This document shows positions 27,986-31,782 of a stretch of 64,000 bases of DNA, in pieces. Positions within the stretch are counted from its first letter, which is position 1, and the number at the start of each line of letters is the position of its first letter. Position numbers and translations under genes: made by a program. Source of the DNA: Bacteroidota bacterium (GTDB taxonomy: Bacteria > Bacteroidota > Bacteroidia > NS11-12g > UBA955); NCBI GenBank assembly GCA_016787485.1, contig JAEUUL010000014.1, positions 62,001 to 126,000 of the forward strand. The letters run 5' to 3'. Under the pieces are notes generated by a model. It was not told the origin of the DNA. It saw only the letters and a program-made list of their open reading frames with translations, and ran no database searches.

Positions 27986-28703
27986 GAGCAAGCACATCCT
28001 TCACACGGCCTCCTCACGCGGACATGCAAATCACGGCTGGCTGGACTCCTGGCACAGTTTTTCCTTTGCCGGTTATTACAACCCTGAACGCATGCATTTT
28101 GGAGCCCTGCGGGTACTGAATGACGATACTGTAGCCCAGGGAATGGGTTTTGGCACACATCCTCACGACAATATGGAAATTGTGAGTATTGCCCTTGAAG
28201 GCGACCTTGAGCACAAAGACAGCATGGGAAACGTGGCGGTTATCCGTGCCGGAGATGTGCAGGTAATGAGTGCAGGTACAGGCATCCGTCACAGCGAGTA
28301 TAACCGCAATCCGGACAAGCTCACGCGTTTTCTTCAAATCTGGGTATTCCCCAAACTGCGAAATGTGGAGCCCAGATACGACCAGATTTCCCTGAGACCG
28401 GAGAACATGCAGAACCGGTTGCTTCAAATTCTCTCTCCTTCTGCAGATGACGAGGGTGTGTGGATTCATCAGGATGCCTGGTTTCACATGGGCCGGTTCG
28501 ATGCCGGTGTGCAGGAGAACTACACCCTGAAAAAAACCGGCAACGGAGTCTATGCGTTTGTGCTTGAAGGCAGTTTTGTGGTGGATGGTGTGGAACTGAA
28601 CCGCCGTGATGCCCTGGGCATTGAAGACATCGCATCATTTACTGTGGAGTCCAAATCGGACCATTCGTCCATTCTGCTGTTGGAAGTACCCATGGAATTC
28701 TGA
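27984..28703 (+). CDS. Pirin family bicupin protein
   Basis: A 239-residue pirin-like protein with two cupin domains. The N-terminal cupin carries the metal ligands in GFGTHPHDNMEI and HSEYN, and the sequence opens with the family signature ANHGWLDSWHSFSFAGY. The C-terminal cupin is less conserved. Bacterial pirins bind iron and some degrade quercetin or modulate metabolism; the role here is unknown. It is followed 23 bases later by the OsmC gene, and both probably respond to oxidative or electrophile stress through the palindrome over the promoter. Confidence 0.9.
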   Translation: MSKHILHTASSRGHANHGWLDSWHSFSFAGYYNPERMHFGALRVLNDDTVAQGMGFGTHPHDNMEIVSIALEGDLEHKDSMGNVAVIRAGDVQVMSAGTGIRHSEYNRNPDKLTRFLQIWVFPKLRNVEPRYDQISLRPENMQNRLLQILSPSADDEGVWIHQDAWFHMGRFDAGVQENYTLKKTGNGVYAFVLEGSFVVDGVELNRRDALGIEDIASFTVESKSDHSSILLLEVPMEF

Positions 28704-28726
28704 GGTTGGGGAACTAATTTGCACCC

Positions 28727-29125
28727 ATGACTCAGCACAAAGTGAACGCCCACCTGGGCAGGGATAAATACAAAACTGCGCTTCAGACCTCACAGCATGC
28801 CTGGTTTGCCGATGAACCCATCGAAAACGGAGGTCATAACCTTGGACCCTGTCCCACTGAATTCCTGATTTCTGCATTGGCGGCCTGCACAAGCATCACG
28901 CTGCGCATGTATGCAGAGCATAAAAACATACCACTGGACGGAGTAGATGTGGAAGTGCAGTTGGAACGGGATCGGGAAGCCGGCGTTACCCGTATAGAGA
29001 AAAGCATATTGCTGCATGGCGACCTGAGTGCGGAACAACGGGACAAACTAATGCAGGTTGCAGACCGCTGCAACATTCATCAGGTTCTTACGCACCCAAT
29101 CGAGATCACAAGCAAGTTGTGCTGA
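28727..29125 (+). CDS. OsmC family protein (peroxiredoxin-like)
   Basis: A 132-residue OsmC/Ohr-type protein. These thiol peroxidases reduce organic hydroperoxides with two cysteines, here one in LAACTSITLRM and one in ADRCNIHQVLT near the C-terminus. The conserved segment GHNLGPCPTEFLISAL is also present. It is cytosolic and follows the pirin gene in one operon. Its stop lies 27 bases before the first repeat of the array downstream. Confidence 0.88.
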   Translation: MTQHKVNAHLGRDKYKTALQTSQHAWFADEPIENGGHNLGPCPTEFLISALAACTSITLRMYAEHKNIPLDGVDVEVQLERDREAGVTRIEKSILLHGDLSAEQRDKLMQVADRCNIHQVLTHPIEITSKLC

Positions 29126-29152
29126 TAGACTGAACATACAGCATTCCCATTT

Positions 29153-29223
29153 CTTCGCCACCCCCTCCTGAGAGGGGTGCGTCCCATCTGATTGTTACCG
29201 GCGATTTCCCTTCACGGGTGTGT
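29153..29223 (+). repeat. Repeat A, copy 1
   Basis: First of four 71-base copies. It carries the hairpin core (here CCCCTCCTGAGAGGGG) and ends in GGGTGTGT. It is the most diverged copy and the only one not preceded by repeat B. Confidence 0.85.
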
Positions 29224-29256
29224 AAAAACCTGAAAATCTGTTTTAGCCAATCAACT

Positions 29257-29350
29257 ACACACCCCGGGATTATTACACGTGCTCCTCATTTTCCACCGGT
29301 CCCCCTCTCCAGAGGGGAAGTTTTTTACTTGTGCAACTTGTTGTAATACC
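29257..29350 (+). repeat. Repeat B, copy 1
   Basis: Begins ACACACCCC, the inverse of the end of repeat A, and carries the hairpin CCCCTCTCCAGAGGGG followed by a T-run (GAAGTTTTTTACTTGTGCAA). Confidence 0.85.
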
Positions 29351-29362
29351 TAAACAATAGCT

Positions 29363-29433
29363 CTTCGTCATCCCCTCTTGAGAGGGGTGCGTCCTGTCTT
29401 GCTGTTGCCGGTGATTTCCACACAGGGGTGTGT
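29363..29433 (+). repeat. Repeat A, copy 2
   Basis: 71 bases with hairpin CCCCTCTTGAGAGGGG and the end GGGGTGTGT. It lies 13 bases after repeat B copy 1 and 26 bases before the 3' end of the DUF559 gene. Confidence 0.88.
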
Positions 29434-29459
29434 TGAAAGCATGAATCGGCAAATAGAAC

Positions 29460-29858
29460 CTAAAGATTAAGTTCTAGTTTTCTATGCTCCACCAGCTTAC
29501 TAACCTCCATTGCTACTTCCTCAAATGAATCTAAAATACGAGAGGCTGAAATTCGGTAGGTTAACAATCCGTATGCTTCTAAAGAAAGCTGTTTCTTGTC
29601 ATCACGTTCAGTTTGATTTTGAAGAAAATGTTGAACACCATCCACTTCAATAATTAACAGTAACTCATGGCAATAAAAATCAGCAATAAAATCAAGCAAT
29701 GGCTTCTGCCTGTGAAAATCGAAACCCAACTGCTGCTTTCCTTTCAATATTTTCCACAATTTCACTTCAGGCAAGGAACTCGTATTTCTAAGATTTCTTG
29801 CTAGCTCTTTTAATTTCGGATTGTATGGAATAATTTGTCTAACCACAATTCTATGCAA
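29460..29858 (-). CDS. DUF559 (Vsr-like) endonuclease domain protein
   Basis: A 132-residue protein of the DUF559 family, a small branch of the PD-(D/E)XK/Vsr nuclease fold. Visible motifs are LPEVKLWKIL near residue 29, GFDFHRQKPLLDFIADFYC with the conserved Arg-x-Lys and Asp, and IIEVDGVQHF with Glu and Asp. These form a likely active site for cutting or nicking DNA. No other domain or signal is present. The gene occupies the spacer position of a repeat unit, flanked by the inverted ends GGGGTGTGT and ACAAACCTC. It is AT-rich (20 G/C in the 60 bases from 29581). The natural guess is that it acts on the flanking hairpins, as RAYT transposases act on REP sequences. Confidence 0.85.
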   Translation of the reverse strand: MHRIVVRQIIPYNPKLKELARNLRNTSSLPEVKLWKILKGKQQLGFDFHRQKPLLDFIADFYCHELLLIIEVDGVQHFLQNQTERDDKKQLSLEAYGLLTYRISASRILDSFEEVAMEVSKLVEHRKLELNL

Positions 29859-29917
29859 TATTTAAATAAACATATTAAAATGTCAAAGATTTTATGACTT
29901 CATTATTTTTGGAAATC

Positions 29918-30010
29918 ACAAACCTCAGGATATTGCATGTGCTTCATCTTCACCACCGGTCCCCCTCTGCAGAGGGGAAGTTTTTTACATGTGCAACTTG
30001 TTGCAATACC
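29918..30010 (+). repeat. Repeat B, copy 2
   Basis: 93 bases, close to copy 1, with the fully palindromic hairpin CCCCTCTGCAGAGGGG and the same T-run. Its start is degenerate (ACAAACCTC). It is preceded by TGGAAATCACA, as copy 3 is. Confidence 0.85.
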
Positions 30011-30022
30011 GATACGATAGCT

Positions 30023-30093
30023 CTTCGTCATCCCCTCTTGAGAGGGGTGCGTCCCATCTGATTGTTTCCGGTGATAACCCGTCAGGGGTGTGT
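30023..30093 (+). repeat. Repeat A, copy 3
   Basis: 71 bases, almost identical to copy 4 over its whole length (hairpin CCCCTCTTGAGAGGGG, then the stretch ending GTCAGGGGTGTGT). Confidence 0.9.
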
Positions 30094-30122
30094 TGAAACT
30101 CGAATTTTTTGGCCTGGAAATC

Positions 30123-30190
30123 ACACACCCCAGGATATGGTATGCGCTTCATCTTCACCACCGGCCCCCCTTTCCGGAGGGGATGATTTC
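30123..30190 (+). repeat. Repeat B, copy 3 (3' part decayed)
   Basis: Starts ACACACCCCAGGATATG like the others, but the hairpin is degraded (CCCCTTTCCGGAGGGG) and the following T-run and tail no longer match copies 1 and 2. Confidence 0.8.
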
Positions 30191-30228
30191 ATTAGAATGC
30201 TGCGCGATATATACCCAAAAAGGCTGCT

Positions 30229-30299
30229 CTTCGCCATCCCCTCTTGAGAGGGGTGCGTCCCATCTGATTGTTTCCGGTGATAACCCGTCAGGGGTGTGT
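30229..30299 (+). repeat. Repeat A, copy 4
   Basis: Last element of the array, 71 bases, ending 13 bases before the dcd stop codon. Its hairpin could also serve as a terminator for dcd, although no T-run follows on that strand. Confidence 0.9.
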
Positions 30300-30312
30300 A
30301 CCGGTTGGTACA

Positions 30313-30849
30313 TCAGAATTGATTCTTCCACATCATGCTCTCGATGGGTTTATCGGGCTGCTGGGAGTACTTGGCGTTGGATTTCTGGTTGTATTTCACC
30401 TCAATTTCTCCCTCACAGGGAAAATAAATGAGCTGGCCAATGGGCATACCCTTGTACACTTTTACAGGTTGTTTCACACTGATTTCGAGGGTCCAGTTGC
30501 CGCAAAAGCCCACATCACCCTTGCCTGCAGTGGCATGGATATCAATACCCAGGCGGCCGGTACTGCTTTTCCCCTCCAGAAATGGCACATGGGCATGGGT
30601 TTCTGTATATTCAAGGGTTACTCCCAGATAAAAAATATGGGGGTACAGCACGAAACCATCATCCGGAATTTCGAAATATTCAATCTGGTTGTGCTTTTTG
30701 GCATCCAAAATATGTTCGCGGTAAGTGGCCAGGGTTCCTCCCAGGTGTACATCGTAACTGTTTGAACCCAGACAGGACCTGTCATAAGGTACAATTTTGA
30801 TATTGCCAGCGGCTATTTCTTCCAGGATGCGGGTATCGGACAAAATCAT
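30313..30849 (-). CDS. dcd: dCTP deaminase
   Basis: A 178-residue enzyme that converts dCTP to dUTP for dTMP synthesis. It opens MILSDTRILEEI and shows CLGSNSYDVHLG, the catalytic region EGKSSTGRLGI with its Ser-Ser-x-x-Arg, and DVGFCGNWTLEI. The length is normal. A near-consensus TAATTTCG box lies just before the ATG. Divergent from the CvfB-like gene, and its 3' end faces the repeat array. Confidence 0.94.
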   Translation of the reverse strand: MILSDTRILEEIAAGNIKIVPYDRSCLGSNSYDVHLGGTLATYREHILDAKKHNQIEYFEIPDDGFVLYPHIFYLGVTLEYTETHAHVPFLEGKSSTGRLGIDIHATAGKGDVGFCGNWTLEISVKQPVKVYKGMPIGQLIYFPCEGEIEVKYNQKSNAKYSQQPDKPIESMMWKNQF

Positions 30850-30942
30850 GGTGGGCGAAATTAGGAAGAGAAAACAAGGCTTTGTACCCGGGTGGGAGAT
30901 TTGTGGACAAAAGAGAGACGGAATAGAACCTACCTTTGCGGC

Positions 30943-31782
30943 ATGGATGCAATCGCCGGAAAATTCAACCGCCTTACTGTAAACCGCAAGGTAGATTTCG
31001 GCGTATTTCTGGATGGCGGGGAAGCCGGAGAAATACTGATGCCGGCAAAGTATGTTCCGGAAGGCACAGAGCCGGGTGCAGAAGTGGATGTTTTCGTGTA
31101 TTACGACACCATGGACCGCATCATTGCAACTACCGAGAAACCCCTGCTGGTAACCGGTGAATGTGCTGCCCTTATATGTAAGAGCATTACCAAATATGGG
31201 GCCTTTCTGGACTGGGGTCTGACCAAGGACCTCTTTGTACCTTTCCGCGAACAGAAGACGGAAATGAAAGAAGGCAGGCCTTATGTGGTGACTGCCTATC
31301 CGGACAAACTGACCAAACGGATTGTAGGCAGTACCAAAATAGAAAAGTACCTCAACAAGTCAGAACCAACATTTGAACCAGGGCAGGAAGTAAGCCTGCT
31401 CATCTTTTCGGAAACCCCGCTGGGTTATAAAGCAGTCATCAACCACACACATACCGGCATTTTGTATCACAACGAAGTCTTTCAGCCACTGGCAATTGGT
31501 CAAACCGTGAAGGGTTATATCAAGCTGGTGCGACCCGACGGCAAAACCGACCTGAGTCTTCAACAGACCGGCGGAGTGCACCAGGACGAAATGGCTGAAA
31601 AACTCCTGAAGATGCTTGAAAAAGCAGGAGGCTTTATTCCTGCCACAGACAAAACCGGACCAGACGACATTTACGACCAGTTTGGCATGAGCAAAAAGGC
31701 CTGGAAAAAAGCAGTAGGTTCTTTGTACAAAGCCCGGCTGATTTCACTGGAAGAAGACGGAATCCGGCTGAGAAAACGCTGA
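30943..31782 (+). CDS. CvfB-like S1 RNA-binding protein
   Basis: A 279-residue protein of the CvfB/YitL type: several S1-like beta-barrel RNA-binding domains (about residues 1-65, 70-130 and 140-210; see KYGAFLDWGLTKDLFVPF) followed by a C-terminal winged helix (DIYDQFGMSKKAWKKAVGSLY). Such proteins bind RNA and affect virulence or translation in Firmicutes; the role in Bacteroidota is not established. The ATG at 30943 is chosen because a TACCTTTG box ends only four bases before it, which suggests a nearly leaderless mRNA. Confidence 0.85.
   Translation: MDAIAGKFNRLTVNRKVDFGVFLDGGEAGEILMPAKYVPEGTEPGAEVDVFVYYDTMDRIIATTEKPLLVTGECAALICKSITKYGAFLDWGLTKDLFVPFREQKTEMKEGRPYVVTAYPDKLTKRIVGSTKIEKYLNKSEPTFEPGQEVSLLIFSETPLGYKAVINHTHTGILYHNEVFQPLAIGQTVKGYIKLVRPDGKTDLSLQQTGGVHQDEMAEKLLKMLEKAGGFIPATDKTGPDDIYDQFGMSKKAWKKAVGSLYKARLISLEEDGIRLRKR

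Follow-up and report, generated by a model that had tools for sequence, protein, structure and literature searches.

What accounts for a small nuclease gene lying in the middle of an ordered array of palindromic repeats? The question is raised by a 64,000 nt stretch of DNA from a Bacteroidota bacterium (assembly GCA_016787485.1, contig JAEUUL010000014.1, positions 62,001–126,000; hereafter the window), in which an array at 29153–30299, placed between convergent genes, comprises four copies of a repeat A and three of a repeat B in the order A-s-B-A-gene-B-A-s-B-A, with a DUF559 gene occupying the middle A–B interval. The original prediction, made from the sequence alone, had described this alternation of A and B in fixed order and orientation around the gene, and our analysis recovered the same counts and coordinates. 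On balance, we favour the reading that the array represents a small mobile unit together with gene-less relatives, and that the DUF559 nuclease most likely drives a REPtron-like or homing-like spread. The features of the array are as follows.

About 29150–29223, plus strand: repeat A1, with hairpin at 29162–29177 (CCCCTCCTGAGAGGGG), 37 nt linker and tail CGGGTGTGT at 29215–29223
29224–29256, no strand: spacer s1, 33 nt, without a gene
29257–29350, minus strand: repeat B1, with tail ACACACCCC at 29257–29265, 36 nt linker and hairpin at 29302–29317
29360–29433, plus strand: repeat A2, with hairpin at 29372–29387, 37 nt linker and tail GGGGTGTGT at 29425–29433, toward the gene
29460–29858, minus strand: DUF559 gene encoding 132 aa from the listed TTG start, catalytic residues kept
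29918–30010, minus strand: repeat B2, with degraded tail ACAAACCTC at 29918–29926, linker and hairpin at 29962–29977
30020–30093, plus strand: repeat A3, with hairpin at 30032–30047, linker and tail GGGGTGTGT at 30085–30093
30094–30122, no strand: spacer s3, 29 nt, with a marginal match of the right end to the inner right flank of the gene-bearing unit
30123–30215, minus strand: repeat B3, with tail ACACACCCC at 30123–30131, linker and hairpin at 30167–30182
30226–30299, plus strand: repeat A4, with hairpin at 30238–30253, linker and tail GGGGTGTGT at 30291–30299

Repeats A and B proved to share one design, placed in opposite directions and differing in the linker, each consisting of a pyrimidine/purine hairpin (CCCCTCTNNAGAGGGG), a linker of 35–37 nt and a G-rich tail (GGGGTGTGT), and the tails of both point inward, either around the gene-less spacers of 33 and 29 bases or around the gene itself. 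The inner tail of A is GGGGTGTGT, with the variant CGGGTGTGT in A1, whilst that of B is ACACACCCC, degraded to ACAAACCTC in the B2 copy. A core of CCCCTCT-NN-AGAGGGG, which had been ascribed to all repeats, is found in most copies, with one or two changes in A1 and B3. The A copies are 85–100 % identical to one another and lie 210, 660 and 206 bases apart (start to start); A3 and A4 are 99 % identical, and part of the array is therefore young. When the spacers were compared with the gene unit as possible internal deletions of it, s1 gave no support and s3 was only marginal, 2 % of shuffled sequences scoring equally high against the unit's inner right flank.

As to the gene product, the window protein matched PF04480 (DUF559) with 80.9 bits against a cut-off of 20.6 (E-value 7.7e-23), its only other Pfam match being DUF2726, below cut-off; no second DUF559 gene is present in the source genome. 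An AlphaFold2 model (pLDDT 89) was most similar to NGO0050 (3hrl; Z 14.7), which is itself a DUF559 protein, followed by the homing endonuclease I-Bth0305I (3r3p; Z 11.9) and the Vsr–DNA complex (1cw0; Z 9.5), and on this model the protein is predicted to have an EDxHD/Vsr-type PD-(D/E)XK nuclease fold. Across 66 relatives, five residues (E31, D60, E71, H77 and D86) never vary and a sixth, D73, is near-invariant; all six are present in the window protein, whose active site is intact. We take the residue order E-x-D...H...D to fit the EDxHD name. The predicted fold and the conserved residues bear out the earlier description of the protein as a Vsr-like nuclease. A cyanobacterial DUF559 member has been assigned to EDxHD in one paper. 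Vsr, which repairs T:G mismatches, and I-Bth0305I resemble the window protein in fold and active-site pattern; the DUF559 protein differs in that it lies outside any intron or intein, has no separate DNA-binding domain and is bounded by palindromic repeats. A reading as a defence system was also considered and set aside, as PADLOC returned a weak domain-level match alone and partner genes were absent.

In order to establish how general the link between gene and repeat might be, DUF559 loci were picked by protein similarity alone and compared with controls consisting of neighbouring genes in the same loci and background windows. Within the Bacteroidota, the motif was found within 300 bp of 86 of 93 small DUF559 ORFs (open reading frames), compared with 13 of 171 control genes (Fisher p 3e-46, a value that, like that for the second set of loci below, overstates independence given the kinship of the loci, although the effect is still large). 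It flanked the ORF on both sides in 46 cases and in none of the controls, and a cruder inverted-repeat score between flanks placed long inverted repeats at 44/93 DUF559 loci and 2/178 controls. A second set of 42 loci, a convenience sample in which most loci come from other phyla or from plasmids (Proteobacteria, Nitrospirae, Planctomycetes, Clostridia, Patescibacteria, cyanobacteria, Deinococcus, a gut phage and some further Bacteroidota), yielded the motif at 40 loci, against 7 of 159 background windows (p 2e-32). Thus, DUF559 genes are rarely without such repeats, nor are the two repeat types surveyed scattered through genomes devoid of the gene, the two outcomes that would have told against the prediction: of 395 Bacteroidota genomes, 31 contain the pattern CCCCTCTNNAGAGGGG-N4-AGGGGTGTGT (and none of those listed its reversed control), and 30 of these 31 have a DUF559 match, compared with 161 of the 395 overall (p 7e-12); for the pattern CCCCCTTTGAAGGGGG-N-GGGGGAT the figures are 16 of 198 genomes and 16 of 16 with DUF559, against 83/198 overall. 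Repeat sequence also covaries with DUF559 protein sequence (Spearman 0.21, reached in 0 of 999 permutations). The NGO0050 gene of Neisseria gonorrhoeae, one of the loci in our sample, lies between two repeat copies of ∼100 bp, direct rather than inverted and each with a triplex-type motif, and the Escherichia coli DUF559 gene ycjD (in the order sapF-ycjD-fabI) has BoxC-like triplex repeats immediately downstream. An unannotated contig of gut phage MT835749 likewise has a DUF559 gene accompanied by hairpin repeats of this design.

The design of the repeats themselves places them beside a known class. The tail GGGGTGTG(T) mirrors the purine arm of the hairpin (GAGAGGGG), with T replacing A, and by sequence the window repeats can thus be assigned the layout of the intrastrand-triplex (BoxC/PIT/TM) motifs, that is, pyrimidine arm, loop, purine arm, linker and a third strand mirroring the purine arm. 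Those motifs, described in E. coli, are likewise intergenic and strain-variable; a synthetic single strand of one of them, TM_ECO, folds as a triplex, and no mobility gene was found near them (Holder 2015, PMC4666352). The window repeats differ in having a nuclease gene between them and in their linkers of 35–37 nt, the second loop of TM_ECO being 3 nt. Because of these long linkers, and because the window linkers fold no better than shuffled sequence, we claim the same layout as TM_ECO but not strict membership. The proposed terminal repeats of the unit are hairpins with a mirror tail rather than the simple palindromic terminal inverted repeats originally envisaged. No Rfam family matched across 28000–31500. 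The CGTC REPs (repetitive extragenic palindromes) of Di Nocera 2013 were set aside as the repeat family, their stems starting with AT pairs; they are alike in being palindromic and in that a search for a dedicated mobilising enzyme brought none to light, but with their AT-started stems and CGTC tag they are distinct, on described features, from the pyrimidine/purine triplex hairpins of the window.

A custom finder for this layout (a hairpin with pyrimidine and purine arms followed by a mirror-image third strand) recovered A1–A4, B1, part of B2 (whose tail is degraded) and a few scattered others in the window. Applied to DUF559 flanks with an 8 bp stem and no mismatch, it returned 104 mirror tails and 26 direct copies of the arm; the contrast is clear only under these strict settings, as loose ones barely separated the two (281 mirror, 260 direct). 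Linker lengths among relatives are bimodal, at either 3–5 nt or roughly 20–50 nt, and each of the 31 different long linkers belonging to one repeat type self-folds as a hairpin (mean −10.2 kcal/mol, against −2.8 for shuffled sequence), from which we argue that it is the folded single strand that is conserved; the window linkers do not share this property. These data bear directly on the notion that an imported cassette has merely been enclosed by bidirectional terminators or insulators, with no role for the repeats in movement. In its favour are the stable intergenic hairpins flanking a small gene and the place of the array between convergent genes. Against it stand the absence of a U-tract, a mirror tail whose conservation exceeds the requirements of a terminator (the strict counts of 104 and 26), linkers that are either 3–5 nt or a hairpin of free sequence, and gene-less copies scattered elsewhere; moreover, in earlier work as cited by PMC4666352, PIT elements had no terminator activity. 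We regard this explanation as highly improbable.

A comparison for the presence or absence of single units had been called for by the original prediction. In a related genome (G018), whose gene order otherwise matches that of the window as far as its short contig reaches, the pirin and dcd stop codons at the corresponding site are 7 bp apart, with neither the array nor osmC between them. A second case came from the genus g88, where one site, bordered by a GntR-like gene and a conserved MutS-like gene (both of which we named by eye), holds a DUF559 unit in four species and lacks it in four others. When G219 is compared with G125, the carrier farthest from it, third codon positions agree at 83 % in the DUF559 gene but at 47 and 49 % in its neighbours (p 1e-13), and the block of high identity runs from the left repeat to the right repeat; the same trend is seen with G094 (96 % in DUF559 and 78 and 81 % in the neighbours). 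As identity is high in the unit and low in its neighbours, and as the block is bounded by the repeats, gene and repeats appear to have moved horizontally, as one unit, into the same site. This lends support to a unit with terminal repeats. Other attempts at the same comparison were uninformative: for Sinorhizobium the comparison strain has a partly deleted gene and hence no clean empty site, on Azospirillum plasmids the gene was in every strain found with the full region, and the E. coli ycjD locus is in most strains and offered no usable empty site. In around two-fifths of E. coli genomes the ycjD–fabI interval is interrupted, probably by the eefABC insertion.

The main rival to our reading is passive hitch-hiking, whereby triplex-type repeats would be recombination hot spots that gather accessory genes, with DUF559, a Vsr-like repair or other nuclease, frequently arriving there but inactive on the repeats. 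Consistent with this, BoxC/TM loci are hypervariable in E. coli (Holder 2015, PMC4666352), and in two of the g88 species (G094 and G125) further DNA lies beyond the unit, together with a third repeat and perhaps small cargo genes. Furthermore, at the intergenic site of the window array, a sister genome (G007, of the genus of G018) has an ORF resembling a REP-associated tyrosine transposase (RAYT) that starts directly after dcd (L201:2044–2661; 57.6 bits to NCBIfam REP_Tyr_transpos, below the 80-bit cut-off). Arguing against it are the near-universal association across phyla, often two-sided and inverted, the covariation of repeat and protein, the repeat types almost confined to DUF559 genomes and the block of high identity that stops at the repeats, and we consider it unlikely, if the strongest of the alternatives. 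Two side observations concern the same loci. The third repeat and extra DNA in G094 and G125 resemble the multi-repeat array of the window, whilst G219 and G110 have another small ORF at the g88 site, without a third repeat. In addition, a single intergenic site is occupied by repeat-associated elements of different kinds, namely the DUF559 array of the window and the RAYT-like ORF of G007.

A further possibility is that DUF559 is a host-serving, structure-specific nuclease that resolves hairpin or triplex DNA at the adjoining repeats, these being mobilised by something else. Its fold is Vsr-like and Holliday-junction-resolvase-like, the DUF559 protein VsrA of Caulobacter provokes an SOS response in cells without the methyltransferase ScmA (PMC12907096), and TM repeats are able to block DNA polymerase in vitro (PMC4666352). 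Nevertheless, the patchy presence of the gene (161/395), its presence or absence between close species and its horizontal movement look selfish, as do the several DUF559 copies among the surveyed genomes that carry stop codons, which would be expected if the elements turn over; nor do single-copy repair genes have any need of flanking substrates. To us this makes a purely host-serving role distinctly unlikely.

For the mobile unit that we favour, the following course may be envisaged. The unit would consist of the DUF559 gene between two ends, read as hairpin, linker and mirror tail on one side and mirror tail, linker and hairpin on the other, with these single-strand-foldable ends serving as its terminal repeats. 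The nuclease would recognise and nick or cut the folded ends, or a target site like them, whereupon host break repair or replication would copy the unit to a new place; cutting would thus drive copying, and A-spacer-B pairs and solo repeats would be non-autonomous copies. The g88 site, with one apparent case of entry into the same site and with high unit identity and low flank identity, fits the pattern that homing gives. There is likewise a close parallel to REPtrons, in which a RAYT (TnpA-REP) accompanies REP/REPIN sequences: in both, a single small nuclease gene is enclosed by short palindromic repeats, solitary and inverted paired repeats without a gene are scattered through intergenic regions, and there are one or few genes per genome. 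The two differ in that the protein here is a PD-(D/E)XK nuclease of EDxHD/Vsr type rather than an HUH tyrosine transposase, and in that the repeat has a mirror-image G-rich tail instead of a GTAG foot. In its working the unit would resemble a REPtron or a homing gene but, because the HUH transposase is absent, it is not a REPtron; the REP/RAYT-like logic with a Vsr-like nuclease that had been proposed is retained in the gene between inverted palindromic repeats, the gene-less copies elsewhere and the DUF559 protein.

The gene-less copies were traced in the source genome (G000). No further copy of the A sequence was found in its 3.4 Mb, but the palindrome pattern, allowing two mismatches, occurs at 15 places compared with one for the reversed control, and around five gene-less solo elements combine the hairpin with another 35 nt linker and GGGGTGTGT.

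C17:5391, C38:103055 and 103304, C34:113090, C41:4870: gene-less solo elements, each a hairpin, a 35 nt linker and GGGGTGTG

These share a linker unlike that of the window, GA-rich at its start and with GGCAA near its end. Because their linkers differ, the copies elsewhere are relatives rather than direct deletion derivatives of the window unit.

Several observations weigh against a nuclease-driven unit. To our knowledge, no DUF559 protein has a known activity on repeats. The other repeats of the source genome have, as noted, differing linkers and are not accompanied by a gene; in one genome (G311) the repeat occurs without DUF559 even by the Pfam model, two loci of the second set (Pseudomonas aeruginosa and Omnitrophota) showed no motif, and E. 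coli ycjD has repeats on its downstream side only. In g88, the insert reaches past the repeats and may include cargo, neither a target-site duplication nor a precise universal junction was seen, the junctions being blurred by indels, and G082 shares a stretch with a filled species, such that its ‘empty’ state may be a loss rather than a pre-insertion state.

Even so, the apparent joint movement of gene and repeats in g88 points to an element that spreads itself, and to a candidate partner for a common class of bacterial repeats that has had none. Few small repeats are as frequent in bacteria as G/C-rich hairpin and triplex repeats, and proteins with DUF559, listed as of unknown function, are likewise very common and mostly carry the annotation of a repair endonuclease; the link between them gives both a testable role. 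Extended to bacteria at large, it would make DUF559/EDxHD nucleases the missing mobilising partners of BoxC-type triplex repeats, as a distinct class of repeat-spreading element, independent of RAYT and DDE transposases, in which an endonuclease of Vsr/homing type would act on triplex-capable folded ends, a proposal that is plausible but to which we give somewhat less than even weight. No earlier report linking DUF559 to flanking repeats was found among titles and abstracts, excluding subscription journals and preprints. The link also suggests a re-reading of the VsrA experiments in Caulobacter, in which a DUF559 protein was connected with damage to DNA in particular mutants. Should cutting by the nuclease of its own repeat in folded form prove true, it would be a compact structure-specific nuclease of a kind that we have not seen described. 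Lastly, the terminal inverted repeats of some tyrosine transposases share GGGGWSAS (Di Nocera 2013, PMC3733652), which resembles the third-strand tail of the window repeats, and it is possible that the same repeats also lie beside RAYT-like genes.
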